Assembly: GCF_008087665.1 (NCBI RefSeq)
Contig: NZ_CP042912.1
Location: forward strand, 5,084,001 to 5,148,000
Reading direction: 5' to 3'
From: Mariniblastus fucicola
GTDB taxonomy: Bacteria; Planctomycetota; Planctomycetia; Pirellulales; Pirellulaceae
Length of the DNA: 64,000 nt
Part shown: positions 4,298 to 22,347 of the stretch, piece by piece
How positions within the stretch are numbered: position 1 is the first letter of the stretch
Layout: each line of letters begins with the position of its first letter
The notes under the pieces: model-generated
What the model saw: the letters and a program-made list of their open reading frames with translations, nothing else
Database searches by the model: none
What the model was told of the DNA's origin: nothing
Program-made: the position numbers and the translations under genes

Positions 4298-5193
4298 AGC
4301 AAACTGGCTCCTTCCGGATAGAGCGTAAAGTAGATCGAATCCAGGCCGATTCCGAGGAACAGGTCCAGCACCAAAATGGCAACGAATGAATACACAAAAG
4401 AACTGGTCGATGCCGATCCAACTCCTTCTGCTCCGTCAGTACAGTTGAACCCCTGGTAACAACTGACCATCGCGATCGCCGAACCGAAGAAGATACTTTT
4501 GAACAACCCGACAAACAGGTCGAAGTTGGTAACAAATTTGGCGCTGTTGTGCCAATAGTGATGAATGTCGATTCCGAGGATGTTCACGCAATAGAAGTGA
4601 CCGCCGGCAACGCCCATGAAGTCCGCCATCACCGTCAGTGTCGGAATCAGAAACAGGCAAGCCATGAATCGTGGGACAACAAGGTAGTGCACCGGATTCA
4701 CGCCCATCGCCGAAAGTGCATCAATCTGTTGAGTGACTCGCATCGTTCCTAGCTCCGCCGCCATCGCACTGCCGACTCGTCCTGCCAGCATCGTGGCCGC
4801 GAGTACCGGTCCGAGTTCGCGAAGCAGCGTCATATTGATGACTCCGCCAAGTCTTGTTTCCAGCCCGATCTGTCGAAACTGGAAATAGCTTTGGACGGCC
4901 AGCACCATCCCGATGAAAGTTCCTGTCAGGGCAACGACCGGAAGCGATTTGACTCCGACCTCATAGAAGTTTGGCCAAATAGTGCCGCGACGTGGCAGAC
5001 GTGAGAACATCCAGCGCAGAGTGCGGAGCGAGAACAGCGCAAAGTCGCCGAGCGAAATCAAGCCATTGACCATCGTGTCGTAGGCATTTAGCACGACGCT
5101 ACCGATGTTGCTGGCGAATGCGATCAGCCAGCCGATCACGCCACTCGGGGCGGAGTCGTCAGGTAGTTGAGATGGTGAAGGGATTGAGGCCAC
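4294..5193 (-). CDS. mlaE: Mla-type ABC transporter permease
   Basis: The 299-residue integral membrane protein matches the MlaE permease family. Its hallmark blocks are visible: RQIGLETRLGGVINMTLLRE, LGPVLAATMLAGRVGSAMAA, and the VPRFMACLFLIPTLT helix. It would form the membrane channel of a phospholipid transporter with MlaF. The N-terminal 60 residues are longer than in E. coli MlaE and contain an additional amphipathic segment. Translation starts at GTG (5191-5193). It is the first gene of the operon and is followed by mlaF with a 4-base ATGA overlap. Confidence 0.92.
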   Translation of the reverse strand: MASIPSPSQLPDDSAPSGVIGWLIAFASNIGSVVLNAYDTMVNGLISLGDFALFSLRTLRWMFSRLPRRGTIWPNFYEVGVKSLPVVALTGTFIGMVLAVQSYFQFRQIGLETRLGGVINMTLLRELGPVLAATMLAGRVGSAMAAELGTMRVTQQIDALSAMGVNPVHYLVVPRFMACLFLIPTLTVMADFMGVAGGHFYCVNILGIDIHHYWHNSAKFVTNFDLFVGLFKSIFFGSAIAMVSCYQGFNCTDGAEGVGSASTSSFVYSFVAILVLDLFLGIGLDSIYFTLYPEGASLL

Positions 5194-5373
5194 GGTTTTG
5201 CCGGCTTGGATTTCACGGTGCCGCGGCCCAATTTATTCGGCGCGCAGCATGATTCTTCTGCCCCCTGTAGCTTCTCCTCTTTCTTCGACAACCGCTCGAC
5301 CAAAACTTGAGAACTTATACCTATTGAGCAGAGTTTTCCGGCTCAGATGCTGGCAGCGGTCACGCTAGCGTTG

Positions 5374-6354
5374 CTATTGCTGAGAGTCGGCCGCACCAAT
5401 TCGCTCCAGCCAGCCGTTTTTCCGCATCCACGATTCGCACAGCTTGGGCCAGTTGGTCACCGGCACGTCTTCGATGAAACGCGCCCCAAACCCATGTCCA
5501 CCGGTATCGAACACGTGACAGTCGACAGGGACATCGGCTTCCTTGTAGAGGCGGGCCAACTCCAGAGCGTTCTGGACGGGAACGAAATCATCGAAAGCGT
5601 GAACGATAAATGCTCGCGGAGAATCCTTGTTGAGCTCCATGCCGTCGCGGAGTCCGCCTTCTTTTTTGACCATCCGGGCACCGTAGACCGGCACGATGAA
5701 GTTGGCTCGGGCAGATTGTTTGTCGACATCATCGATCGCATCGTAGCGAGCCGTCGTGAAGGCTGCATTGGCGATAACGTTTCCTCCGGCAGAGAAGCCG
5801 AGCGTTCCAACTCGATCTTTGGCCAGGTTCCATTTCTCGGCATTGTGCCGCACCATGGCGATCGCGCGTTGCAAGTCTTCCGTCGGAGCAGCCGCCGGGT
5901 CAGACTCACGCGCCGTCGGAACGCGGTACTTCAGAATGAAAGCATTGACGCCGATCGAGTTAAGCCATTGAGCGATCTCGGTGCCTTCGAGATCCCAAGC
6001 CAAAATATAGAACCCGCCGCCCGGACAGATGATGACCGAAGTTCCCGTGTTCACGTCCGCGTCTGCCGGCCAGAAATGCAGTTCGGCACTGGAGACGTTG
6101 GTGATCCGCTGCACACGCTTTCCGGCAATCAGTTCTCCGTCGTCTTTGGTTGTGTCGTGCTCTTGCCCGACGTCGAGCCGTTTGTCGGTCGCGGAATCCG
6201 GCCACACCTTAAGAACTTCGGCGTGTTCGGCAGGCTCAACCGCTTTTGCTTTCATCGGCTGGTTCCAGACCAGCCATCCGCCGCCAACCAGAACCAACAG
6301 AAAAACCAGGATAGTAAATTCGCGAGAGAGCCCAAGTTTTGTGAGTGCATTCAT
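5374..6354 (-). CDS. Anchored alpha/beta hydrolase (esterase/lipase-like)
   Basis: The 326-residue protein starts MNALTKLG and has a signal anchor at about 10-28. The catalytic part shows the oxyanion block PGGGFYILAWDLEG, a nucleophile elbow GFSAGG and a C-terminal GGHGFG, which is the layout of the acetyl-esterase/BD-FAE-like alpha/beta hydrolases often annotated as acetylxylan esterase or endo-xylanase-associated esterase. The start was set at 6354 because the upstream open frame lacks features and the anchor follows directly. Planctomycetes carry many such enzymes near polysaccharide-degradation genes, but no glycoside hydrolase lies beside this one. The gene is monocistronic, between mlaE and lexA. 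Confidence 0.78.
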   Translation of the reverse strand: MNALTKLGLSREFTILVFLLVLVGGGWLVWNQPMKAKAVEPAEHAEVLKVWPDSATDKRLDVGQEHDTTKDDGELIAGKRVQRITNVSSAELHFWPADADVNTGTSVIICPGGGFYILAWDLEGTEIAQWLNSIGVNAFILKYRVPTARESDPAAAPTEDLQRAIAMVRHNAEKWNLAKDRVGTLGFSAGGNVIANAAFTTARYDAIDDVDKQSARANFIVPVYGARMVKKEGGLRDGMELNKDSPRAFIVHAFDDFVPVQNALELARLYKEADVPVDCHVFDTGGHGFGARFIEDVPVTNWPKLCESWMRKNGWLERIGAADSQQ

Positions 6355-6440
6355 GGGCCTATCATCGCAGGATTGGAATGCAATTTCCAGAGTTTTGCTT
6401 TTATCGTGAAGCCAACCACACAAATCTGGCTCAGAACTTA

Positions 6441-7037
6441 TCAGAGCTTTCTGACCAAGCCGATTACAACGCCCTGAACGCGAACGTCTTTGCGATAGAT
6501 CGGCTTCATGGTTTTGTTGGCCGGCTGAAGTCTGACTCGGTTCTTTTCCGGGTACCAGTACTTGAGGGTCGTCCCGTTTTCATCGTCGCAAACGACTACG
6601 ATGTCGCCGCGGTCCGCAGTCGACTGTTTCTTGACCAGCACGAAATCCCCTGGAGCGATTTGCGCATCGATCATTGATTCGCCGGTCACCTCCAGCACGT
6701 AGTCTGCCCGCCGTTCGAGCCCGTCGAACTCGAACCGCTCTGCCTGAGCAAACGTTTCAGTCAACGGCCCGGCGGAAATGCGACCAACCAGCGGCAGTCC
6801 GGCGGGAGAACATTTTTCTGTTAGGACAATCGATCGAGCACGGTTCTTCGTTCGTTTAATCATGCCCTTGGCTTCGATCCGCTTCAGCAGACCAGCAACA
6901 CCGTTGGGAGACGAGATGCCGAGGTGGTCGCCGATTTCGCGAATCGTCGGCACATGATTTTTGTGCTCGATCTGCTGCTTGAGGTACTTGAGCACGCGAC
7001 GCTGATTTTTGGTCAAGTCTTTGGTTTCAGGAGCCAT
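6441..7037 (-). CDS. lexA: LexA repressor
   Basis: The 198-residue protein is a complete LexA: an N-terminal winged-helix domain (about 1-72, with NQRRVLKYLK and TIREIGDHLG), a self-cleavage site Ala89-Gly90 in GRISAGPL, the catalytic Ser121 in GESM and Lys159 in TTLKYW. The Ser-Lys spacing of 38 matches the family. LexA represses SOS genes and is cleaved when RecA filaments form. GESM replaces the more usual GDSM, a conservative change. It is transcribed divergently from the SDR gene across about 190 bases. I could not recognise an operator in that gap, so autoregulation is assumed from the family, not seen. Confidence 0.95.
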   Translation of the reverse strand: MAPETKDLTKNQRRVLKYLKQQIEHKNHVPTIREIGDHLGISSPNGVAGLLKRIEAKGMIKRTKNRARSIVLTEKCSPAGLPLVGRISAGPLTETFAQAERFEFDGLERRADYVLEVTGESMIDAQIAPGDFVLVKKQSTADRGDIVVVCDDENGTTLKYWYPEKNRVRLQPANKTMKPIYRKDVRVQGVVIGLVRKL

Positions 7038-12717: not shown

Positions 12718-14883
12718 TCACCGTGTTTTGTGCCCGCCGACATGGTAGTCATGACAGGTTGTGCAGCTGTTGTCAGTCAACCCTTTCTGATGACAGCTGG
12801 AACAGGTCGACTTCAGGATCGGATGAAAGTTACTTTCGTAATCGGTTCGATCGAGGCTGGCGAAGGAATCGCCGTTGGAAACCGATGCATCCATTTTGTG
12901 GCAATGCGAACAATCCTGCAAAGCTGGTTGAACGAGGTGCGGACGGTGTGAGAACGAAGTGAATTGGCCTAACGCTCCGTTGCGACGATTCGCATTCCAG
13001 TTCATCACCAGAGACCGATCTTCGTTTCGTTTGAGCGTGTGGCAGTAGCGACAGTTGCCAATCGCTCCGGTCCCAGTGAGGGAACGATAGAGTTCGGACG
13101 TGGCCGCACTGGAATCCGCATCGGGTGTGGCCAACATCATCTCAAACCAATGCTTGAGAAATTCGTCCTGATGCCCCGCCGGACGGTAGTAAATTCGCAG
13201 CGACCGATCATCCCGAATCCAACCGGTACGCAGTCCGCTGCCGGTTTCCGGTTTGAGCGCCGAGACCGGTTCTTCGCCGATCGAACGGGGCATTGCTGGC
13301 GAAACGTTTGCCTGTTGAGTCGAAGTTGAGAACGGCGGAGTCACGTTTGGCTCAGTCGCAGTTCGCTGAGGCGACGTTTGTGATTGAAGTTTCGCAGCTT
13401 CAGTGCCTGCCGAATTTTCATCCAGCCCAGCCAATGGGTTCCGCGCCAATTGCTCTTGCGCAGGAACTTTTGCGAGGAAGTCACGCGGGTTGATCAGACT
13501 GGAAACATCGGCGGCTGACGATTCTCCAAACCTTGTTTTGATTTCCGCGTTGAGCCGAGGGAACCAGCGTCTTGCTGCGGCCGCAAACGAATGGCCTTCC
13601 ATTCCGCGAAACATGCCTCGGACCTCTTCCGCATCCAGATCGCGACCGAGCACCGTCTCGATTCTCCGCTCGACCGCAGGAACACCTTTGCGGCTGAGTT
13701 CGTGCAGCAATCGTTTGACCGACCAGGCTAATGTAACCGCTTCTTGCACATCGCGATCGTCGCCAGGATCCAAATCTGCGAACTCAAATGATGCTGGCCG
13801 CGAGTTCAGAATCGGACCGGCTCGCGGATCGGCCATCAGCAGCAACCGCATCGCGGGAGGAAGCGGACCGTCGAAATCTCCCGTCGCTGCCAACGGCCAC
13901 GAGCCGACTTTCAGATTTCGTTTTTCGATGGCTTTCATGTCCAGCATCGGCAATGACAAAACAGCAAACCCGCCGACTCCACTATCAACGATTTTCTTCT
14001 CATGACAGGACGCACACGCCTGTTCGAACGGAGCTTGAACTTTGGCATTCTGCCAGGCATCATCGAGGTGACAGCGACTGCAATCGAACACCGCGTTGCT
14101 TCCGGGAAAGTGCCTGGATGCGTGCGTTGAGTGATCGAAGGCGATATTTTGTCGTGACGCCTTGGGCCAACTGGTGAACTCCGGGTGGTCGCTTTCGAAA
14201 CTGTGATAATTCGACTGATGGCAGCTTTGACATTGAGCATCGGTCATCGCCTGAAGATCCTGAGCCCCTTTGTGCTCCCGATGACAGGCGTTGCAAGCGA
14301 TCTCGTTGTTCGCAGTCACCGGGGGAATCGTCAAGTTTGACACAAAGGATGCGTTTTGAAACTGAGCGGTCGTTTTCGCCAACTGTTGTGGTGCGACGTT
14401 GTGCGGGTTGAGCGCGAAGTCTTCGTTGAGCGAGGCCTTGTGGCATTCGAGACAAAGCTTTGACTGAGTCTGCTTGTTCGAAGCTCCCGAAAACGCATGC
14501 GCCACCCAACCGAATGCGGATCCGGTCGTTCCCGAATGACATGCCGCACACCGATCAGCTCCATGTCCGGCCAACAGTTGCGCGTGGCTTGAGTGCAGCG
14601 GTCCTGGAGCCAAAAACTCGTTGCTGTACGGTGACGAAAGCACGATCATCAAGGCTCCGATCGTGAACGCGATCACGCACAGAGACAGCACCTTGCGTCG
14701 CTGGCGTAGCGACGGCCGAGTCAACGTCGGCTCTTCTTCGCTGAGGTCCCGATTCCCATCGTCGCGAGTCGGCCATGGCTTGACGATCCCTGCAGGAATC
14801 TCAACCGTTGGATCGTGCGGGCGATGATAGAAGGTGTCAGAAAAGTCCTGCAGCCGCAAATCGTCTTCGGAATTCACACTCAT
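12718..14883 (-). CDS. Membrane-anchored decaheme cytochrome c
   Basis: The 721-residue protein has an N-terminal cytoplasmic segment of about 65 residues, one membrane helix (LSLCVIAFTIGALMIVLSS) and a large extracytoplasmic part with ten CxxCH heme-binding motifs: six between helix and midpoint (RCAACH, LCLECH, ACNACH, QCQSCH, DCSRCH, ACASCH) and four near the C-terminus (NCRYCH, DCSHCH, TCSSCH, SCTTCH). A Pro/Ser/Thr-rich linker separates the two heme blocks. The start at 14883 gives an ATGA overlap with the upstream b-type gene, indicating translational coupling. Role: multi-step electron transfer across the periplasm as the terminal component of the operon; its electron acceptor cannot be read from sequence. 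Confidence 0.88.
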   Translation of the reverse strand: MSVNSEDDLRLQDFSDTFYHRPHDPTVEIPAGIVKPWPTRDDGNRDLSEEEPTLTRPSLRQRRKVLSLCVIAFTIGALMIVLSSPYSNEFLAPGPLHSSHAQLLAGHGADRCAACHSGTTGSAFGWVAHAFSGASNKQTQSKLCLECHKASLNEDFALNPHNVAPQQLAKTTAQFQNASFVSNLTIPPVTANNEIACNACHREHKGAQDLQAMTDAQCQSCHQSNYHSFESDHPEFTSWPKASRQNIAFDHSTHASRHFPGSNAVFDCSRCHLDDAWQNAKVQAPFEQACASCHEKKIVDSGVGGFAVLSLPMLDMKAIEKRNLKVGSWPLAATGDFDGPLPPAMRLLLMADPRAGPILNSRPASFEFADLDPGDDRDVQEAVTLAWSVKRLLHELSRKGVPAVERRIETVLGRDLDAEEVRGMFRGMEGHSFAAAARRWFPRLNAEIKTRFGESSAADVSSLINPRDFLAKVPAQEQLARNPLAGLDENSAGTEAAKLQSQTSPQRTATEPNVTPPFSTSTQQANVSPAMPRSIGEEPVSALKPETGSGLRTGWIRDDRSLRIYYRPAGHQDEFLKHWFEMMLATPDADSSAATSELYRSLTGTGAIGNCRYCHTLKRNEDRSLVMNWNANRRNGALGQFTSFSHRPHLVQPALQDCSHCHKMDASVSNGDSFASLDRTDYESNFHPILKSTCSSCHQKGLTDNSCTTCHDYHVGGHKTR

Positions 14884-15719
14884 GCGAGACCTCCACCGTA
14901 GGCGTGAGCCAACAGTCCATGCACGACGGAAAAGATCAACAGGCTCCACGTGATTGCGATGTGCACGAACAGCCACAGCTTGAGCCGACCCTGCATCGCG
15001 GTGTGATAGTCGAGGTCATCTTTCTTTCGAACCATGATTGCCAATTCGCGACTGACTCGCCGATCCTCTTGAGCCAGGAATCGATCAAGCTCTTCGATCT
15101 CAGCAATCAAATGTCGGCGTTTCCGACCTGTTGGGATCAGCATGTAGCCCAACCCACGACGGCATTCGAAAAACTTCGACAGCCGATTGACGTAGAAATT
15201 TGCCAGAACTGGTGTGCTTTCGCAGGACTCCATGACGATCGTTTGGGCGCGCCGCGCGAGGTGCCGTTTGAACGCCGGAATCCGCTCGAAGATCACTTCT
15301 TCTCCAACTGAAGTCAGCTTTCGCGGAATCGATCGCGTGGCCCAGATGCCGTAGATGCCGCTGAAAAACACGACCAGATACAACAGTGCCAGAATCGATT
15401 CAAGCATTCCGTCGGGAACTCGAAACGCAATGTGCATTGCAAAAACGGCAAACGATCCCAAACCGACATAGATGTGCATTTGCATCCAAAATGACGCACT
15501 ACCGATGCCGGCAATCATCGGCAGTCGTTTTCGCATCCCAAACGCAGCCAGCAAAAACAGGCTGCCGATCAACACGTACCCGGTCAGGAAACTACTGTGC
15601 AGTAGCGAACGGTCCATCCACATCACGATCGCAGCCAGCATCGCGATTGAGGCGACGGTCAAAGTAACGTTTCGCAACCGTCGCCGCGAAAGTCGATTCA
15701 TTTGTGAGAGGAACTTCAT
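14880..15719 (-). CDS. Cytochrome b-like membrane protein with two H-x13-H pairs
   Basis: The 279-residue protein has five hydrophobic segments (about 17-36, 43-62, 73-99, 104-128 and 245-272). Four histidines fall in two pairs spaced 14 residues apart: H82/H96 in the third helix and H253/H267 in the last. This is the arrangement expected for bis-His ligation of two b-type hemes stacked across the membrane, as in ferric-reductase/cytochrome b561-like proteins. A 115-residue charged loop lies between helices four and five. It starts one base after the cNMP/Fe-S gene and overlaps the decaheme gene by four bases, so it likely links Fe-S electron donors to periplasmic hemes. No closer family name can be given. 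Confidence 0.75.
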   Translation of the reverse strand: MKFLSQMNRLSRRRLRNVTLTVASIAMLAAIVMWMDRSLLHSSFLTGYVLIGSLFLLAAFGMRKRLPMIAGIGSASFWMQMHIYVGLGSFAVFAMHIAFRVPDGMLESILALLYLVVFFSGIYGIWATRSIPRKLTSVGEEVIFERIPAFKRHLARRAQTIVMESCESTPVLANFYVNRLSKFFECRRGLGYMLIPTGRKRRHLIAEIEELDRFLAQEDRRVSRELAIMVRKKDDLDYHTAMQGRLKLWLFVHIAITWSLLIFSVVHGLLAHAYGGGLA

Positions 15720-15720
15720 G

Positions 15721-17451
15721 CTATTTCTCAGTCCACTCCATCACGTCGTCTGGCGAACTGATATCGATGCGAACCAACGCGTCGTGCGGGCAGGCGCGTT
15801 GGCAGGCAGGCCCAAACGGTTGCTCCAAACACAAATCACACTTGGTTGCTTTGATCACCGGTAGCGAGGTCTCAGAATCGCGAATCGGATTCCCGCGGTT
15901 GTCGTTGACCTGGACCATTTGAATGTTGTGATAGGGACAGTTGTTCGCACAGGTTGAACATCCGATGCACGTTGTATCGTTGATTGCAACGTTACCCGTT
16001 TCGCGATCCCGACCGATGGCTCCGGTCGGACAGCCGATCATGCAAACCGGATCAAGGCAGTGCATGCAGGCGTTGGCGATCATCCAGTGATCGTGCACCG
16101 GACCGTGTCGGACAAAACGGGGATTGTTATCGTGCGTCGAGGCACAGGCCCGGACGCAGTCATCGCAGCGTGTACATCGATCAAGGTCGATCATCATGGC
16201 CTGCGTGCCGTTGATAAACCGGTTTTCTACCAGGAACTCCATCAGCCCCGGTTCCATCGATTTGGCGCGTGGCGTCAGTCGTCGATTCCTTGCTTTCCCG
16301 TCACCAGCGAGGTCAGGCAGCGGTGCCGGAAACGAAGACTCGCGTAGTTGCGGCAGGACAAGTTCCTCAAGCACCGTGACCGGGATCTTTAAAACGTCGA
16401 CAAAGCCCAGCGAACGCAGACTCAGCATCCACGGCCGCTGCTGACCGGTGGCCCAGTTGTGCACGACCTCACGAAAGCCAAACGTGTCTCCTTTGCCCAG
16501 ATACGCGATCGTCTGATGGCCTTCTCCATGCTTTCGGCTCAAGCGAGCGAAGCCGTTGCGAATCAAAACCAGGCCATCAACATAGTCGCCCTGCTCGGCG
16601 ATCAGCGGCTCGTTGAGAATCCGCTGCGAGATGTCTTTCTTGAGAGTGGATTTGAACTTGTGCGACCACTGATAGTTTCCAAAGGTCTGAAAAATCGTGC
16701 GATCGGCGAGTTTGCGAATGACGTCGTCAGGCAAATCGCGAAAAATTTCAGTTTCTCGGAGATGAGCTTGCAGGCTGTTTTCGCGGTATCGTTTTTCAAT
16801 ATGTTGCCCCATGGCTTCATTTCGAAGCATCAACTCGCGGAAGCCCTGCCAACGAATTTCCAGCACGACCATCTTTGAATTCGCGACGACGGTAGCTGAC
16901 CGCGCGGATCGAGTCAGCGCCGAGATCTCGCCAAAGATTTCTCCTTCGCCAAGCGTAATCGAGTGCTCGGGAGGAATCACGCGAGGAATGTCGTGCAGGA
17001 AAACATGCGTTCCGCTGGAGTGATCTCGCAAGCCCGTTCCAGTATCCTGATTGGGCGTTTTGGTTTTCGAGTAGTCGCGAGCTTCCGTCTGATTGGAGTT
17101 TCGCCACAACTGTGCGATCGCTCGCCCCCAGCCTTTTCGTTCCTTGTTGCCACGGCCAAGAACTTCTGGCGGTAAGCTTCGAGTGGAAACAAGTGCTTCT
17201 CCGGACACGATCAGAAACGCACTTCCGCCGTAGTCACCTTCGCGAACAATGATGTCGCCCTTTTCCAACTGCTGCAGTCGCGAATCGTTTTTCAGAATCC
17301 CTGACAGCGGCATCGATTCCGAAAAACTCTCCGGATTCATTGCCGTGAACGGCGCAACCTTCAACAGCCCATCGACGGCTCGCGCGTCCATGTCAGGATC
17401 CAAAGGCTCACTCCAGCGAGCCGGAAATTTGATCCGTGTTGAATTTTCCAT
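15721..17451 (-). CDS. Double cyclic-nucleotide-binding domain fused to four-cluster ferredoxin
   Basis: The 576-residue protein (start at ATG 17451 chosen for an upstream AGGAA; ATG 17481 is possible) has two cNMP-binding-like domains. The first includes GEIFGEISALTRSARSATV, a recognisable phosphate-binding cassette, and is interrupted by an insertion; the second lies at about 230-380. The C-terminal 150 residues hold four Cys clusters of the DmsB/HybA type: CTRCDDCVRAC, CMHCLDPVCMIGCP, CIGCSTCANNCP and CDLCLEQPFGPACQRACP, so four [4Fe-4S] clusters are expected. It has no signal peptide, suggesting a cytoplasmic electron carrier docked to the adjacent b-type protein. Fusion of ligand-sensing and electron-transfer modules suggests gated electron flow, which is inference. 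Confidence 0.87.
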   Translation of the reverse strand: MENSTRIKFPARWSEPLDPDMDARAVDGLLKVAPFTAMNPESFSESMPLSGILKNDSRLQQLEKGDIIVREGDYGGSAFLIVSGEALVSTRSLPPEVLGRGNKERKGWGRAIAQLWRNSNQTEARDYSKTKTPNQDTGTGLRDHSSGTHVFLHDIPRVIPPEHSITLGEGEIFGEISALTRSARSATVVANSKMVVLEIRWQGFRELMLRNEAMGQHIEKRYRENSLQAHLRETEIFRDLPDDVIRKLADRTIFQTFGNYQWSHKFKSTLKKDISQRILNEPLIAEQGDYVDGLVLIRNGFARLSRKHGEGHQTIAYLGKGDTFGFREVVHNWATGQQRPWMLSLRSLGFVDVLKIPVTVLEELVLPQLRESSFPAPLPDLAGDGKARNRRLTPRAKSMEPGLMEFLVENRFINGTQAMMIDLDRCTRCDDCVRACASTHDNNPRFVRHGPVHDHWMIANACMHCLDPVCMIGCPTGAIGRDRETGNVAINDTTCIGCSTCANNCPYHNIQMVQVNDNRGNPIRDSETSLPVIKATKCDLCLEQPFGPACQRACPHDALVRIDISSPDDVMEWTEK

Positions 17452-17499
17452 CTGTGGTTCCTGTCTTCCCGCAGCATCCATGCATTGGGTGAAGGGCGT

Positions 17500-18519
17500 T
17501 TATTTGTATTGGCTGGGCGAGGGCAACAGAGCGTCGACAAACGCCATTTCGCTACCATCATTTTTGACCGCGAACTCGCGACCGGCCTGTTGGATTTCGT
17601 CTGCGACTTCGTTGAGTTGTTCGTAATTGTTGGTGTTCAGTTTGGCTTTGGCAAATGCCTCAAGCACACGTTGTACCTGTTCGTTGTTGAATGCTTTCTG
17701 CAACTCAAACAGCTTCACCGCCGAAGCGGCAGCTCGCTGGGCCACGTTGACGCCGTAAGTCCCGTTTTCGGTCGCGATCGCGGTGGCTCGGGTGCTGAAC
17801 TCAAGATCAGCGATGAGCCCCACGACATGCATCATCCGCAGTCGATCCTGAGACGCCTGCTCGTTAACGGCTCCGTTGCTACGTAGAAAATTGTGCCGAA
17901 TCTGTCCCTGCGAATAGCGCACCAGATCGAACTCGGCAGTTCCCGCAGTGTGACCGCCGATGTTGACAAGGTCTTCGTTGGGGACCATGTGGCAGCTGTA
18001 ACAGTTCATTGCAATGGAATACAGATCACGCGTATTGTTCATGCCGAATTTGGCACTTTGTTTAAGCCGCTTCTTCCGATGCGACTCTGACTCGGATTCT
18101 TTCGTTGCCGTTGGACCGCCGTAGTCATTGTGCAGCGCCAGCCAGTCGCGGGAAGCGCCGTGGCACGACTCACAGGAGATTCCGGATACAGCTTTGTTGC
18201 GGCCATCGATCTCCTGGAGCGTGAAGTGGCAATCGATGCAGACGTTACTGCGTTTGACCGAACTGAGCCCCATCTTCGAACAGATTTCGCGAGCTTTCGG
18301 GTTGCGTGAGAGTTCTTCGAAGGTTTTGAAGTGAGGCGTTTGCCGCCAAACCCGAATTTCGCTTCCATGACAATTGGCACAGGACTCAAACGTCATCACC
18401 TTGGACGGATCGCAAACCAGACCCTGAGCAGCCGCCTGTAAACCGATGTGAGAGACAAGGCACGTGATGAACACGACGGCAGCGGAAACTTTGAGCATGG
18501 ACGCTTTTATTCGGAACAT
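17500..18519 (-). CDS. Secreted tetraheme cytochrome c (c554-like)
   Basis: The 339-residue product has a signal peptide (about 1-32) and four CxxCH motifs: SCANCH (ending H51), VCIDCH (H98), SCESCH (H120) and NCYSCH (H177). The block CANCHGSEIRVWRQTPHFKT resembles the cytochrome c554/c-prime multiheme family. The C-terminal half is helical without hemes. A strong GGAGGT about 8 bases before the ATG lies inside the end of the upstream reductase gene, whose stop is three bases away, so translation is coupled. It probably acts as a periplasmic electron carrier of the operon. Confidence 0.88.
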   Translation of the reverse strand: MFRIKASMLKVSAAVVFITCLVSHIGLQAAAQGLVCDPSKVMTFESCANCHGSEIRVWRQTPHFKTFEELSRNPKAREICSKMGLSSVKRSNVCIDCHFTLQEIDGRNKAVSGISCESCHGASRDWLALHNDYGGPTATKESESESHRKKRLKQSAKFGMNNTRDLYSIAMNCYSCHMVPNEDLVNIGGHTAGTAEFDLVRYSQGQIRHNFLRSNGAVNEQASQDRLRMMHVVGLIADLEFSTRATAIATENGTYGVNVAQRAAASAVKLFELQKAFNNEQVQRVLEAFAKAKLNTNNYEQLNEVADEIQQAGREFAVKNDGSEMAFVDALLPSPSQYK

Positions 18520-18522
18520 CGA

Positions 18523-19809
18523 CTACACCTCCAACTCAAGAGCACCGTCAGGAACCGCAATGCATGGCAAGCAACAGCCAGGATTGCAACTGACTTTATC
18601 CCCCGTCGTGTATCGGACTTTTCCGCTGACGATCGCCGTTTCACATGTGCCGCAACTGCCAGCCCGGCAACCGGATTCGATCGGAATGTCGTTGGCTTCG
18701 GCAAGCTCCAACAAGGATTCGAAACTGGAATTCCAGAGCGCGACTTCATTGGACTCGAGAAACGAAACCGGGTCCGGAGAATCGTGTTTGGTTTCGTTTC
18801 CAGCGGTCGATTTCTTGATCGTCGAAGGGCCGAACTGTTCGTACTTGATGCGCGACGCGTCGATGCCCCACTCTTCCAGGCCCGAGTGCAAAGATTCCAT
18901 AAACGCCGGTGGCCCGCAAAGATAGAACTGACAATTTTCGCCGGGAATGATGGCTTTGAGCAGGTCAATCGAGACGAACCCCTGAACCTGATAGTCGACG
19001 CCTTTGATGTCGTCAGGCTGAGGACGAGAGTAGCAATTGATGACGTGCACGTTTGCGTTTTCGGCAGCTTTCTCGCCAAGGTACTCTTTGAACTGCTGTT
19101 CCTCGCTGTTGCGAACGCCGTGAATCAACACGACGGATCGATTCGGGTTCGTGGCCAGCAAATGGTCCAGCATGCTGACCATCGGTGTGATTCCGATTCC
19201 ACCGGCCAACAGGACGGCGACGTCGTCAGATTGTTCGTCCAGGTAAAAATGGCCCGACGGTGCCTTGATTGGAATTCGATGTCCGACACGCGTACCGAAA
19301 TTGACAATCGTGGAAACCACGCCCGGGCCCTTGTCGCCGCCTCGGTCGGCAACGTGCTTCACCGTCACGCGATAGTACGGATTGCCTGGTGCTCCCGACA
19401 ATGAGTAACAGCGAATCAGCGGTTTTGATTTTCCTTTGGGCTGGAACTTCAGCGTGATGTGCTGCCCGGGCTTGAAACCCGGAATCGGTTTTCCGTCTTC
19501 TGGCGCGAGGTAGACGGACACTGTGTTGACGCACTCGCGAACCATTTTGGTAACGATAAAGTCACGATATCCGTTCCATGCACCGGCATTGCTTTTTACT
19601 GACTTGTTACTGGCACGCAGTCGAATCGCCTCCCGCATCCAGCGGGTTGACTCCTGATGGGCCTGATTGGTGCCAGTCAGAGACATCAAAGTCTGCCCGG
19701 CCCACGAGGCAACGCCCAGCAATGCTGCGGCGCACAGTCCGATGCCCAAGAATAAAATGATGCTGTCGATTCCAAACATGAAGGTAGTGCCAAGTCCGTG
19801 TTGGCTCAT
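18523..19809 (-). CDS. Membrane-anchored FAD/NAD(P)H oxidoreductase with C-terminal 2Fe-2S domain
   Basis: The 428-residue protein has one N-terminal membrane helix (about 14-41), then a ferredoxin-reductase module: FAD-binding RCYSLSG, NAD(P)-binding LLAGGIGITPMVSML, and YLCGPPAFM. It ends in a plant-type [2Fe-2S] domain with CRAGSCGTC and a later Cys. The layout matches the flavohemoprotein-reductase/Hcr/phenol-hydroxylase reductase family, with the unusual addition of a membrane anchor. It should take electrons from NAD(P)H. It is the first gene of the electron-transfer operon, which suggests it is the input module. The [2Fe-2S] domain also contains an extra CC pair of unknown meaning. Confidence 0.87.
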   Translation of the reverse strand: MSQHGLGTTFMFGIDSIILFLGIGLCAAALLGVASWAGQTLMSLTGTNQAHQESTRWMREAIRLRASNKSVKSNAGAWNGYRDFIVTKMVRECVNTVSVYLAPEDGKPIPGFKPGQHITLKFQPKGKSKPLIRCYSLSGAPGNPYYRVTVKHVADRGGDKGPGVVSTIVNFGTRVGHRIPIKAPSGHFYLDEQSDDVAVLLAGGIGITPMVSMLDHLLATNPNRSVVLIHGVRNSEEQQFKEYLGEKAAENANVHVINCYSRPQPDDIKGVDYQVQGFVSIDLLKAIIPGENCQFYLCGPPAFMESLHSGLEEWGIDASRIKYEQFGPSTIKKSTAGNETKHDSPDPVSFLESNEVALWNSSFESLLELAEANDIPIESGCRAGSCGTCETAIVSGKVRYTTGDKVSCNPGCCLPCIAVPDGALELEV

Positions 19810-19968: not shown

Positions 19969-20301
19969 TCAGCTTTTGGGAACCGCATCGCCAATTTGCC
20001 GCAGCAAATCGAAAGTGTATATTCCGGCGCTGTGACCGTCGGAAAAGTGAATGTTGTAAGCGTAGTTGCCGACCGGATGCATGACTTCGATGTCCAGCGG
20101 GCGAGCTTCCGCAGCCGACAAGACCGTCAGCTGATTTGTTGGCGGGGCAGGCTTTGGATTGATGCGTTCTTCATTGCAGTGAGCACAATGGCAGGCTTTA
20201 CGAAGCGCGCTGTACGGAATTTCGTGCCGCACGTCATCGCTCCATACGATCACGATGCTGCGATCTTCCGTTTTCGTCAATTCAACAGGGTGAAGACTCA
20301 T
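19969..20301 (-). CDS. DUF971-domain protein
   Basis: The 110-residue protein matches the DUF971/gamma-butyrobetaine-hydroxylase N-terminal-like domain: SDDVRHEIPYSALRKACHC at the centre, a CHCAHC pair, and NYAYNIHFSDGHSAGIYTFD near the end, a very characteristic block. Such small stand-alone proteins have been linked to Fe-S or metal-related functions in some bacteria, but no activity is established here. Its ATG overlaps the TGA of the adenylate-forming ligase gene by the ATGA arrangement. Confidence 0.88.
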   Translation of the reverse strand: MSLHPVELTKTEDRSIVIVWSDDVRHEIPYSALRKACHCAHCNEERINPKPAPPTNQLTVLSAAEARPLDIEVMHPVGNYAYNIHFSDGHSAGIYTFDLLRQIGDAVPKS

Positions 20302-21581
20302 CTTTGATCCAGAAACCTTTTGCCTTTCATCTCAAACCGTGGCAGCGATCCAGATTCAACGACCTCTACCTCGACACGCAAACCCAACCGGATCTGAATC
20401 TCGTTCGCAATCCTGTTCGGATCCCCCAAACGGTCCTCAACGCGAACCCTCAGCTGATCCATCTGCCCATCACGCCACGCGATCAGCTGAAATTCGTCGA
20501 CGCTATCAAACCCACGTAGAATTTTCTCCAACGATGTTGGAAAAACGTTTACGCCACGGATGATCATCATATCGTCGGATCGCCCCAGCACACCGCCGTC
20601 GAGAAACACAAACGATGAGTCTGTCTTCCAGGTTGGACGCACGAGGTCTCCGGTCAAGTATCGTAGCACCGGACAACCAAGCCGACCGATTGTCGTGATC
20701 ACCAGCTGACAAACCTGACCTTCGGTGGCAGGCGAATTCTTGTCCAGCGGTTGGTTCGTTTCGACGTCCAAAAATTCTGGAAAGAACTGCGACTCGTTGA
20801 CATACAGCCCGGTTCCGGCAGCATCAGCGAACCCCCACGGTCCGACTTCGGTCGCTCCGGCATGATCCACGACGCCCGCGTTCCATTTGGATTCAATGGA
20901 AGCGCGAATTTCCGGAACGGATCCGCCTGGCTCTCCAGCGACGATGATTTTTCTAACGGCGCTGCTCGCGAGGTCAATCGATTTCTGTTCAGCAACCTGA
21001 GCCATATGCAGTGCGTAGCTGGGCGTGCAAAAAACAATCGTCGCTCGCGAAGACAGAACCAGATCAAGCCGCGCTTCGGTGCTCATCGCTCCTGTCGGCA
21101 TCACCAAAGCCCCGCGTTCGACTGCCGCGTCGAAAGCCGACCAAAATCCGACGAAAGGACCAAAGCTAAACGCCATCAGAACACGATCCGATTCGGTCAT
21201 GTTGGCTGAATCGAGCACGTGTTGCCAAGCCTCCATCCACCACTGCCAGTCGTCTTTCGTGTCCAGCACTGCCAGCGGACGGCCCGTCGTTCCGGAAGTC
21301 CGATGGAATCGACTGTAGTGCTCTCGCGAAAACGACAGGTTCGCGGCATAGCCGTCGTCGCCAATTAGCTCGTGCTTTTTCAGCAACGGCACACGAGCGA
21401 ACGCGTCGAGACTCGAAATGGCATCGGCGCCATCAAGCCGTTCCCGAAAGAACGCATTCTTTTCGCGGACCAGTTCGGCAAACGCAAACAGCTGTTCGGC
21501 CTGGGCGCGTTCAAAGCTGGCTCGGTCTTGAGCCAGTATCTTTTTTCGATGTTCAGAATTGGTTCGTTCCAGTTGCCACAT
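20298..21581 (-). CDS. Phenylacetate-CoA ligase-like adenylate-forming enzyme
   Basis: The 427-residue protein (start MWQLERTN at 21581; the frame is open further upstream but runs into the divergent glycosylase gene) has the adenylate-forming hallmark RTSGTTGRPL, the ATEVGPWG block and a C-terminal lid with GRSDDMMIIRGVNVFP. These place it with PaaK-type CoA ligases, which activate aryl or other carboxylic acids through an acyl-AMP. The substrate is unknown; there are no phenylacetate-catabolism genes here. It is coupled to the DUF971 gene downstream by an ATGA overlap and is transcribed divergently from the DNA glycosylase. Confidence 0.85.
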   Translation of the reverse strand: MWQLERTNSEHRKKILAQDRASFERAQAEQLFAFAELVREKNAFFRERLDGADAISSLDAFARVPLLKKHELIGDDGYAANLSFSREHYSRFHRTSGTTGRPLAVLDTKDDWQWWMEAWQHVLDSANMTESDRVLMAFSFGPFVGFWSAFDAAVERGALVMPTGAMSTEARLDLVLSSRATIVFCTPSYALHMAQVAEQKSIDLASSAVRKIIVAGEPGGSVPEIRASIESKWNAGVVDHAGATEVGPWGFADAAGTGLYVNESQFFPEFLDVETNQPLDKNSPATEGQVCQLVITTIGRLGCPVLRYLTGDLVRPTWKTDSSFVFLDGGVLGRSDDMMIIRGVNVFPTSLEKILRGFDSVDEFQLIAWRDGQMDQLRVRVEDRLGDPNRIANEIQIRLGLRVEVEVVESGSLPRFEMKGKRFLDQR

Positions 21582-21696
21582 GCCTCTATGATATTCGGAA
21601 CTCGCCGACGCCAACAGCCTGTTGTGTCTTATCGCACGTAGCAACGACAACTCGAAACCCCGGCGATCGTTTTCAAATTTCCCCGAACACCTCTGC

Positions 21697-22347
21697 ATGT
21701 CCTTCTCCGCCCAGCACGTCAAAGCCGCCCGTCTGCATCTGCGAAAATCCGACCCCAAACTCGGCGCGATTATCAAGTCTGTCGGCCCGTTCACGACCAA
21801 GGCTCGTCGCGATCGTTTTGGAACGCTGGTTCGATCGATCGTCTCTCAACAAATCGCAACCGCAGCGGCAGAAGCGATCAAAAGTCGGCTGGAAACAGCG
21901 ATTGAAGATAATCGCAAGACAGCTCGCAAGCGTGGTCAGCCTTATTGCCCCAAAACGATTCTGGATTTTTCAGTCGACGAGCTTCGTGAAATCGGACTCT
22001 CGCGACAGAAAGCAACCTACGTCCAGTCCCTGGCCCAGCACGTCGTCGATGGCGATGTTGATTTGGCCGAAATCCACAAACTCGACGATGAAACGATTAT
22101 TGAATCGCTAACGCAAGTCAAAGGTATCGGGCGTTGGACCGCGCAAATGTTTCTCATATTTTCGCTGGCCCGATTGGATGTTTTGCCCGTGGACGACCTT
22201 GGCGTCAGAACCGCGGTCAAAAACGTTTACGGTCTGGGCGATCTTCCGGCGAAATCAGAAATGGAAGAAATCGCCGAGCCTTGGCGGCCGTACGCTTCAA
22301 TCGCCAGCTGGTACATGTGGAGAAGCCTGGAGCTGGACGAGAATTGA
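21697..22347 (+). CDS. AlkA-type DNA-3-methyladenine glycosylase
   Basis: The 216-residue protein carries the HhH-GPD signature: SIVSQQIATAAA near the N-terminus, the hairpin LTQVKGIGRWTAQMFL and the catalytic Asp in PVDDLGVRTAV. This is the DNA-3-methyladenine glycosylase II class, which excises alkylated bases. The start ATG 21697 is chosen because the family domain begins shortly after. It lacks the N-terminal AlkA domain of E. coli, as is common in short homologues. Confidence 0.88.
   Translation: MSFSAQHVKAARLHLRKSDPKLGAIIKSVGPFTTKARRDRFGTLVRSIVSQQIATAAAEAIKSRLETAIEDNRKTARKRGQPYCPKTILDFSVDELREIGLSRQKATYVQSLAQHVVDGDVDLAEIHKLDDETIIESLTQVKGIGRWTAQMFLIFSLARLDVLPVDDLGVRTAVKNVYGLGDLPAKSEMEEIAEPWRPYASIASWYMWRSLELDEN

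Follow-up and report, generated by a model that had tools for sequence, protein, structure and literature searches.

Hmc, Tmc and Ohc, complexes of sulfate-reducing bacteria, each bring together a periplasmic multiheme cytochrome c, a membrane b-type cytochrome and a cytoplasmic 4Fe-4S protein encoded in one operon, and to our knowledge none of them includes cyclic nucleotide-binding (cNMP) domains or a flavoprotein that uses reduced nicotinamide adenine dinucleotide or its phosphate (NAD(P)H). Here we describe an operon in a 64,000-nucleotide stretch of the Mariniblastus fucicola genome (contig NZ_CP042912.1, positions 5,084,001 to 5,148,000; hereafter the window) that shares the combination of multiheme c, membrane b and 4Fe-4S proteins. 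Its five genes lie on the minus strand (12718 to 19809) and encode, in order of transcription, an anchored NAD(P)H reductase (RED), a tetraheme cytochrome (TetraC), a fusion of cNMP and ferredoxin domains (cNMPFd), a membrane protein with predicted b hemes (CytB) and a decaheme cytochrome (DecaC). The likeness to the sulfate-reducer complexes does not extend to family membership: DecaC scored 21.1 bits against HmcA (cut-off 400) and cNMPFd 34.4 bits against HmcB (cut-off 420), and Tmc and Ohc families are absent from the listed NCBIfam matches of the five proteins (for RED 25 of 26 matches, for cNMPFd 25 of 66, and all of those for the other three).

Porin-cytochrome conduits provide a second comparison. 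In MtrCAB and the Geobacter Ext and Omb systems, as excerpts of PMC5585712 describe them, a multiheme gene adjoins a barrel gene, as it does in many relatives of the window's operon; the inner-membrane entry here, however, is a chain that starts from NAD(P)H rather than CymA, CbcL or ImcH. He et al. (2017; PMC5615132), in the excerpts available, proposed extracellular transfer by a Verrucomicrobia complex of an eight-heme multiheme cytochrome and a porin with at least 20 transmembrane motifs; the organisms belong to the same superphylum, and the porin stands beside the multiheme cytochrome as in many of the relatives examined here. The main text of that paper contains neither “cyclic” nor “cytochrome b”, and an article that mentions porin-cytochrome complexes in planctomycete metagenome-assembled genomes (MAGs; PMC10732223) has neither “cyclic” nor “multiheme” in its main text. 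No named system in Pfam or NCBIfam corresponds to a five-gene set with cNMP domains, no description of one was found in the open-licence papers searched, and none of them was found to pair “multiheme cytochrome” with “cyclic nucleotide-binding domain”.

Results

RED, cNMPFd, CytB and DecaC are the stable core of the set, as adjacency in 30 loci establishes: CytB and DecaC each adjoin cNMPFd in 29 loci and both do so in 28, RED lies near cNMPFd in 26 (20 upstream on the same strand, six divergent), and TetraC does so in 24 (21 upstream on the same strand, three divergent). The full set of five, ordered as in the window, occurs in 13 loci. The two misses are L150, a short second copy for which no DecaC was found, and L142, where CytB sits in a mis-started frame of 728 amino acids (aa) that the script passed over. 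A sequence-only reading of the window had joined the five genes into one operon; they are not scattered in the relatives whose gene order was checked, and since order and ligand residues are preserved in distant genomes, the operon lies beyond chance.

These counts draw on cNMPFd matches in 62 of 294 genomes from the source phylum (1e-20) and in ten of 194 genomes from a second phylum, that of locus L034 (Opitutales), which is taken here as Verrucomicrobiota (1e-60). Forty places from 39 of the 62 genomes, together with six others, gave 46 neighbourhoods, of which 27 form the core (L032–L055, L060, L076 and L077); the remaining 19 were excluded from gene-order counts, their cNMPFd being distant or, in the case of L059, read from a mis-called frame. 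Ten Verrucomicrobiota loci (L141–L150) brought the total to 37 core loci, 30 of them with enough flank, and these are not independent, several being close kin (for example L052/L077 and L045/L046/L048).

The chain that had been proposed from the sequence, running from NAD(P)H through flavin adenine dinucleotide (FAD) and 2Fe-2S, four 4Fe-4S clusters and two b hemes to the c hemes, is well supported by the conserved ligands and by gene order. RED matches FAD_binding_6, NAD_binding_1, NAD_binding_6 and Fer2 over the Pfam cut-offs; its flavin motif (R133/Y135/S136) is present in 28 of 29 aligned homologues, and its 2Fe-2S cysteines (C381, C386, C389 and C416) in all 29. The same FAD, NAD and 2Fe-2S domains are found in PaaE/BenC/HCR-like NAD(P)H reductases, from which RED differs by its N-terminal membrane anchor, a transmembrane helix read by eye; its NCBIfam matches to PaaE, HCR-like NADH oxidoreductase and BenC, among those listed, fall below the curated cut-offs. 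In cNMPFd, which matches cNMP_binding and several Fer4 families over the Pfam cut-offs, the 16 cysteines that would hold four 4Fe-4S clusters are invariant, eight of them in 38 of 38 proteins (the window's own and those of 27 core loci, of L059 and of L141–L149) and eight in 37 of 37, one protein in the alignment having no coverage of those positions. The ferredoxin domain has HycB3 as its best solved match (1.5e-15), and the C-terminal 145 residues resemble four-cluster ferredoxins of the HycB/HydN/DmsB type. Unlike those, it is fused to two cNMP domains, and its partner is CytB rather than a molybdoenzyme or an NrfD protein. The placing of the flavoprotein before the Fe-S protein gains support from the Sphingobium plasmid homologue L078, in which an FAD domain is fused to cNMPFd.

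CytB passes no Pfam cut-off and matched no NCBIfam model. Four of its histidines (H82, H96, H253 and H267) are invariant in 30 of 30 aligned homologues, which backs the sequence-only reading's claim of two b hemes; they form two pairs, each 14 residues apart, the arrangement expected if CytB binds two such hemes. The structure model is of high quality (predicted local distance difference test (pLDDT) 91.6) and has no fold match in the PDB at 0.001 (best Foldseek value 0.12); the profile search likewise returned no PDB chain below 0.01. Assignment of CytB to NarI, FdnI or b561 was considered and is not shown, the profile search and Foldseek having given nothing convincing in the PDB. The Sphingobium homologues of CytB reach 22.1 and 24.2 bits against Ni_hydr_CYTB, under its cut-off of 30.1.

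TetraC exceeds the Pfam cut-off for Cytochrome_C554, and DecaC those for Cytochrome_C7, the MtrC/MtrF-like domain PF22113, Paired_CXXCH_1 and Cytochrom_c3_2. Proteins with exactly four or exactly ten CxxCH motifs were retained as homologues, filters that the window's own proteins pass, and ligands were counted in 24 of 25 TetraC proteins (that of L054 is a contig-end piece) and 24 of 26 DecaC proteins. Four CxxCH motifs and four spare histidines (H63, H130, H190 and H209) are invariant in all 24 TetraC proteins; all 24 DecaC proteins have ten CxxCH motifs and nine spare histidines, and the tenth, H680, is present in 23. Because the conserved spare histidines equal the c hemes in both proteins, no heme is seemingly left open for a substrate. 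A catalytic enzyme of the NrfA or HAO type was rejected for this reason, and the set seems to be a conduit, given the predicted pairing of histidines with c hemes. Of the NCBIfam matches listed, none to a named complex reached its curated cut-off, in keeping with the sequence-only reading; the listed matches to subunits of nitrate, nitrite, sulfite, dimethyl sulfoxide, formate, Hmc, Dsr and Qrc systems all fell below theirs. From hydrophobic segments, charges and signal peptides judged by eye, we read RED and cNMPFd as cytoplasmic, TetraC as periplasmic and DecaC as anchored with a cytoplasmic tail. Within that N-terminal tail (~14883-14620), 21 of 24 aligned proteins have conserved cysteine columns before the transmembrane helix, in repeats of the form CG...C..GP...G.C that often come in two copies; the pattern is missing from the window's protein, L032 and L050. 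It is possible that these cysteines form an extra metal site that was lost in the window's lineage.

The two cNMP domains, which had been described as gate-like, fare differently. Domain 1 retains the phosphate-binding cassette FGE...R.A, with G184, E185 and R194 in all 38 core proteins, and in an alignment of 48 proteins that takes in distant ones its Glu is kept in 48 and its Arg in 45 (lost in L071, L074 and L075). In domain 2 the cassette Glu is gone from all 29 proteins counted, the nine Verrucomicrobiota proteins having been left out, and is replaced by Leu in 20, Phe in six and Val, Ile or Met in one each. The gate-like description gains support for domain 1 and loses it for domain 2. 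The best solved matches of domain 1 are cyclic guanosine monophosphate (cGMP)-dependent protein kinases (PKG; from 3.7e-9), ahead of subunits of the kinase dependent on cyclic adenosine monophosphate (4.3e-5 to 8.6e-4). PKG and cyclic-nucleotide-gated channels carry the same cassette; the output of cNMPFd differs from theirs in being an Fe-S electron carrier, neither a kinase nor an ion pore. The residue after the Arg is the selectivity position of PKG, at which, in the excerpts of PMC3080414, Thr gives cGMP selectivity, Ser in its place costs about 4-fold, and Ala or Val 27-29-fold; among the 38 proteins it is Thr in 23, Ser in nine, Val in four, Ala in one and Asn in one. A Pfam scan of cNMPFd found no DNA-binding, kinase or cyclase domain. 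By eye, residues ~97-170 (~17190-16970) form a long, insertion-like stretch between the early strands and the domain-1 cassette.

A pentaheme cytochrome and a barrel-type protein of 459-606 aa lie near the operon in 14 of the 30 loci, and the barrels end in Phe in 14 of 14 aligned proteins. Across the 37 core loci, every pentaheme seen has a barrel in the same locus, and L053 has a barrel alone. At 1e-50, with a query from G083, itself an operon-bearing genome, the pentaheme was found in 43 of the 294 genomes: 36 of the 62 with cNMPFd and seven of the 232 others (Fisher 1.6e-22, uncorrected for kinship). Among genomes with a strong cNMPFd match (1e-80 or better) it is present in 26 of 28, the exceptions being G023 and G164. 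The source genome has one such pair, a barrel gene (5432793-5435018) and a pentaheme gene (5435015-5437405) that overlap by 4 bases (4794-7019 and 7016-9406 in L121 coordinates). The model of its 741-aa barrel has a mean pLDDT of 61.9, with most of the first 340 residues below 50; from residue 355 it is almost all strand, with 17 strands of at least 8 residues, and ends in F. Its best PDB matches are MOMP, AlgE and the OccK porin OpdO, with E-values from 1.5e-10 and target template-modelling scores of 0.42-0.66 among the best 50 listed. Two of four scanned pentahemes (L034 and L052) share with DecaC a PF22113 match over the cut-off, and those of L046 and the source genome fall below it; the single pentaheme scanned in NCBIfam passes no cut-off, and the scanned barrels match no family over its cut-off.

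Class III cyclases occur in all 28 genomes with a strong cNMPFd match, and for that reason their presence is little informative. Seven of the 28 (G048, G069, G181, G227, G152, G245 and G176) have a cyclase within 8 kb of cNMPFd, which by genus is 3 of 17 against 0.28 expected (P 0.0023) at a limit picked after the list had been viewed, and two of six further genomes have one nearby (L033 and L036). The nearby cyclases include a first group, divergent from TetraC (L045, L046 and L048; ~80% alike), and a second, divergent from RED (L033, L036 and L042; 33-36% alike). An FHA domain passes the cut-off in the cyclases of L046 and L033, with none shown in L036 and L042, and falls below it in L123, the source genome's own counterpart to the first group (33% to L046 across its length). 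Two cyclases, L123 and L033, were compared with solved structures, and both match 2w01 best; we take this to be Cya2, and it has Glu at the first purine site. At that site, seven of nine aligned cyclases (L045, L046, L048, L123, L033, L036 and L042) have Asp, neither Lys nor Glu; L122, an unlinked cyclase of the source genome, has the adenylate-type Lys. In class III guanylate cyclases, among which Cya2 is counted as a guanylyl cyclase, Glu replaces Lys at the first purine site and the second Asp is replaced by varied residues (PMC4215837, excerpts). That the ligand is cGMP is thus put forward tentatively from these sequences, as a lead and not a result.

Beyond the core, CytB and a ten-heme DecaC are still present at four loci with a distant cNMPFd (L057, L061, L066 and L067), and a ten-heme DecaC at L065; no heme proteins were seen in the fetched flanks of cNMPFd-like genes at L056, L063 and L064. 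In a third form, cNMPFd stands beside a 15-heme cytochrome (L071, L072 and L074), with a 17-heme cytochrome as well in L071 and L072. Four Verrucomicrobiota loci (L143, L145, L146 and L149) have an LVIVD-decaheme relative after a protein of 787-807 aa whose last residue is Tyr in L143 and L146; L143 is the locus at which the presence of an LVIVD domain was confirmed. A remote form is found on Sphingobium megaplasmids (L078 and L079), where cNMPFd, a CytB-like protein and a ten-heme cytochrome are accompanied by a metallophosphoesterase, annotated CpdA in strain TomMM15. In S. herbicidovorans (L078), the one example scanned for this, a pyridine-nucleotide/FAD oxidoreductase domain is fused N-terminally onto the cNMPFd chain, and a weak FHA-like stretch in the ten-heme protein does not reach the cut-off. 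A divergent LVIVD multiheme gene (1320-1330 aa) was also observed at both megaplasmid loci.

The five open reading frames are present on the minus strand with the ends first assigned to them (Table 1), and the tight spacing noted at the outset is borne out: 3 bases separate RED from TetraC and 1 base cNMPFd from CytB, TetraC and cNMPFd are 18 bases apart from ATG 17481 or 48 if the later Met at 17451 is the start, as the sequence-only reading had it, and the TGA of CytB overlaps the ATG of DecaC (14883) in an ATGA. The listed DecaC frame, from GTG 14976, is longer; we place the start at ATG 14883 because the alignment with the 710-aa relative in L032 opens at residue 32 of the query. That nearest relative found, a Pirellulaceae MAG, has a cNMPFd 84% identical in the best segment, all five operon genes and, on the two sides, homologues of the same three flanking genes: a GBBH-like_N gene and an AMP-ligase gene, which lie upstream, 159 bases before RED, and a DUF218 gene downstream of the operon. 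The GBBH-like_N and AMP-ligase genes (19969-21800) overlap by 4 bases, and their L032 homologues likewise lie upstream. The source genome (6.57 Mb, one contig) has a single full-length cNMPFd.

Table 1. Operon genes and cNMPFd segments, in window coordinates.
Feature	Coordinates	Strand	Remarks
RED, membrane-anchored NAD(P)H reductase	18523..19809	minus	428 aa; FAD, NAD and C-terminal 2Fe-2S domains
TetraC, tetraheme cytochrome, C554 family	17500..18519	minus	339 aa; signal peptide by eye
cNMPFd, two cNMP-binding domains and ferredoxin domain	15721..17481	minus	586 aa; 576 aa if start is 17451
CytB, membrane protein predicted to hold two bis-His b hemes	14880..15719	minus	279 aa
DecaC, decaheme cytochrome	12718..14883	minus	721 aa from ATG 14883; N-terminal tail and transmembrane anchor by eye
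Phosphate-binding cassette, cNMP domain 1	16894..16935	minus	cNMPFd residues 183-196
Four-cluster ferredoxin domain of cNMPFd	15763..16200	minus	residues 428-573; Fer4 families

Discussion

The core of this operon is very probably an inner-membrane conduit from NAD(P)H to the periplasm. NAD(P)H would reduce the FAD and 2Fe-2S cluster of anchored RED, from which electrons would pass to the four 4Fe-4S clusters of cytoplasmic cNMPFd. The pair of b hemes in CytB would take them across the membrane to DecaC, on the periplasmic side, and TetraC would carry them onward. We infer this outward direction because an NAD(P)H reductase is most simply read that way. The pentaheme cytochrome and outer-membrane barrel would be the next station in many relatives, and their distribution makes the same probable here, giving an extracellular route; we lean modestly towards the view that the operon serves such a route in M. 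fucicola. Known conduits had been set aside in the sequence-only reading, which included neither the link to the pentaheme and barrel nor the cyclases near the operon in some relatives; that link makes an extracellular conduit the leading reading.

The conservation of its pocket makes it likely that domain 1 of cNMPFd binds a cyclic nucleotide. That the set combines a conduit with cyclic-nucleotide control of some kind is, taken together, somewhat probable, and whether binding would change electron flow is close to an even question that we place just on the doubtful side. In its most specific form, which we offer tentatively, the proposal is of a ligand-gated wire: a cyclic nucleotide, which may be cGMP made by an FHA-cyclase, would act on the protein itself to switch the flow of electrons from NAD(P)H towards the cell surface. 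Supplied by a class III cyclase, the nucleotide would bind domain 1 and thereby open or close the step from the reductase to the membrane.

A number of observations weigh against this proposal. The source genome's pentaheme/barrel pair lies 0.33 Mb from the operon, not beside it; 26 of the 62 genomes with cNMPFd have no pentaheme at 1e-50, and seven (G205, G024, G194, G257, G155, G213 and G278) have a pentaheme without cNMPFd. Within the window's own family, G205 is such a case and G274 has a distant cNMPFd and no pentaheme. RED was not found in the fetched flanks of L045, L046, L048 and L150. The cyclase evidence depends on the post hoc 8 kb limit, with G245 and G176 near its edge, and at 5 kb a cyclase is near cNMPFd in two of 17 genera; the source genome's two cyclases lie ~3.8 and 3.4 Mb from the operon, and BLAST with cyclase queries, with no HMM search there, found no cyclase in the ten Verrucomicrobiota loci. 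The cyclases of L036 and L042 are without the transition-state Asn, and L125, beside the pentaheme in G245, has the adenylate-type Lys, which slightly lowers our expectation of cGMP. The window's cNMPFd has Ser rather than Thr after the Arg, and an isolated PKG domain with Thr prefers cGMP two-fold only (PMC3080414, excerpts). Finally, the cNMP domain could steer assembly or stability, not electron flow.

The strongest alternative, which we regard as unlikely, is an ungated inner-membrane supply to the periplasmic reductases and cytochromes of each lineage, with the outer-membrane pair separate and the cNMP domains acting as structural or assembly aids. It would suit the variation of distal partners among lineages (TetraC, the LVIVD-decahemes of L143, L145, L146 and L149, and the 15- and 17-heme proteins of L071 and L072), the distance of the pair from the operon in the source genome, and a domain 2 without its cassette Glu. 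On the other hand, the strong co-occurrence of the pentaheme with cNMPFd argues against a separate pair. The Glu and Arg of domain 1 are kept in 38 of 38 proteins, yet the Arg is lost in three of the four members of the 15-17-heme group, L072 retaining it; the losses in L071, L074 and L075 indicate that the pocket drifts where it is free to drift.

Electron uptake, in which a donor outside the cell or in the periplasm (a reduced iron, sulfur or nitrogen compound) would feed TetraC and DecaC and, through CytB, reduce NAD(P)+, appears improbable. Its appeal lies in the fact that direction is not fixed by sequence and that TetraC belongs to the Cytochrome_C554 family, the best known member of which takes electrons from hydroxylamine oxidation. 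Moving electrons from a c heme to NAD+ is, however, energetically uphill, and the set shows no energy input to drive it; moreover, the enzymes that RED resembles (PaaE, HCR-like NADH oxidoreductase and BenC, all below cut-off) take their electrons from NAD(P)H. Least credible of all is that cNMPFd is a redox-sensing regulator rather than part of a respiratory chain, with the hemes keeping the cyclic nucleotide system informed of redox conditions outside. Although the cNMP domains and the FHA-cyclases neighbouring the operon in some relatives are signalling parts, cNMPFd has no output domain of the kinds scanned for, and sixteen predicted bis-His hemes with a flavin reductase exceed a sensor's needs.

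Returning to the gated conduit, multiheme conduits are usually seen as wires whose control lies in gene expression and in the kind of acceptor available. If the Fe-S subunit of such a conduit has a working second-messenger pocket, with cyclase genes nearby in some lineages, cells could switch electron export at once, and the conduit would be an electronic counterpart of the cyclic-nucleotide-gated ion channel. CytB represents a conserved membrane cytochrome family for which no solved structural relative was found in the PDB searches. With this operon, planctomycetes and verrucomicrobia would have a defined candidate path by which electrons from NAD(P)H could leave the cell, and, if the gating proposal is true, a new kind of respiratory control would extend across planctomycetes, verrucomicrobia and some alphaproteobacteria.

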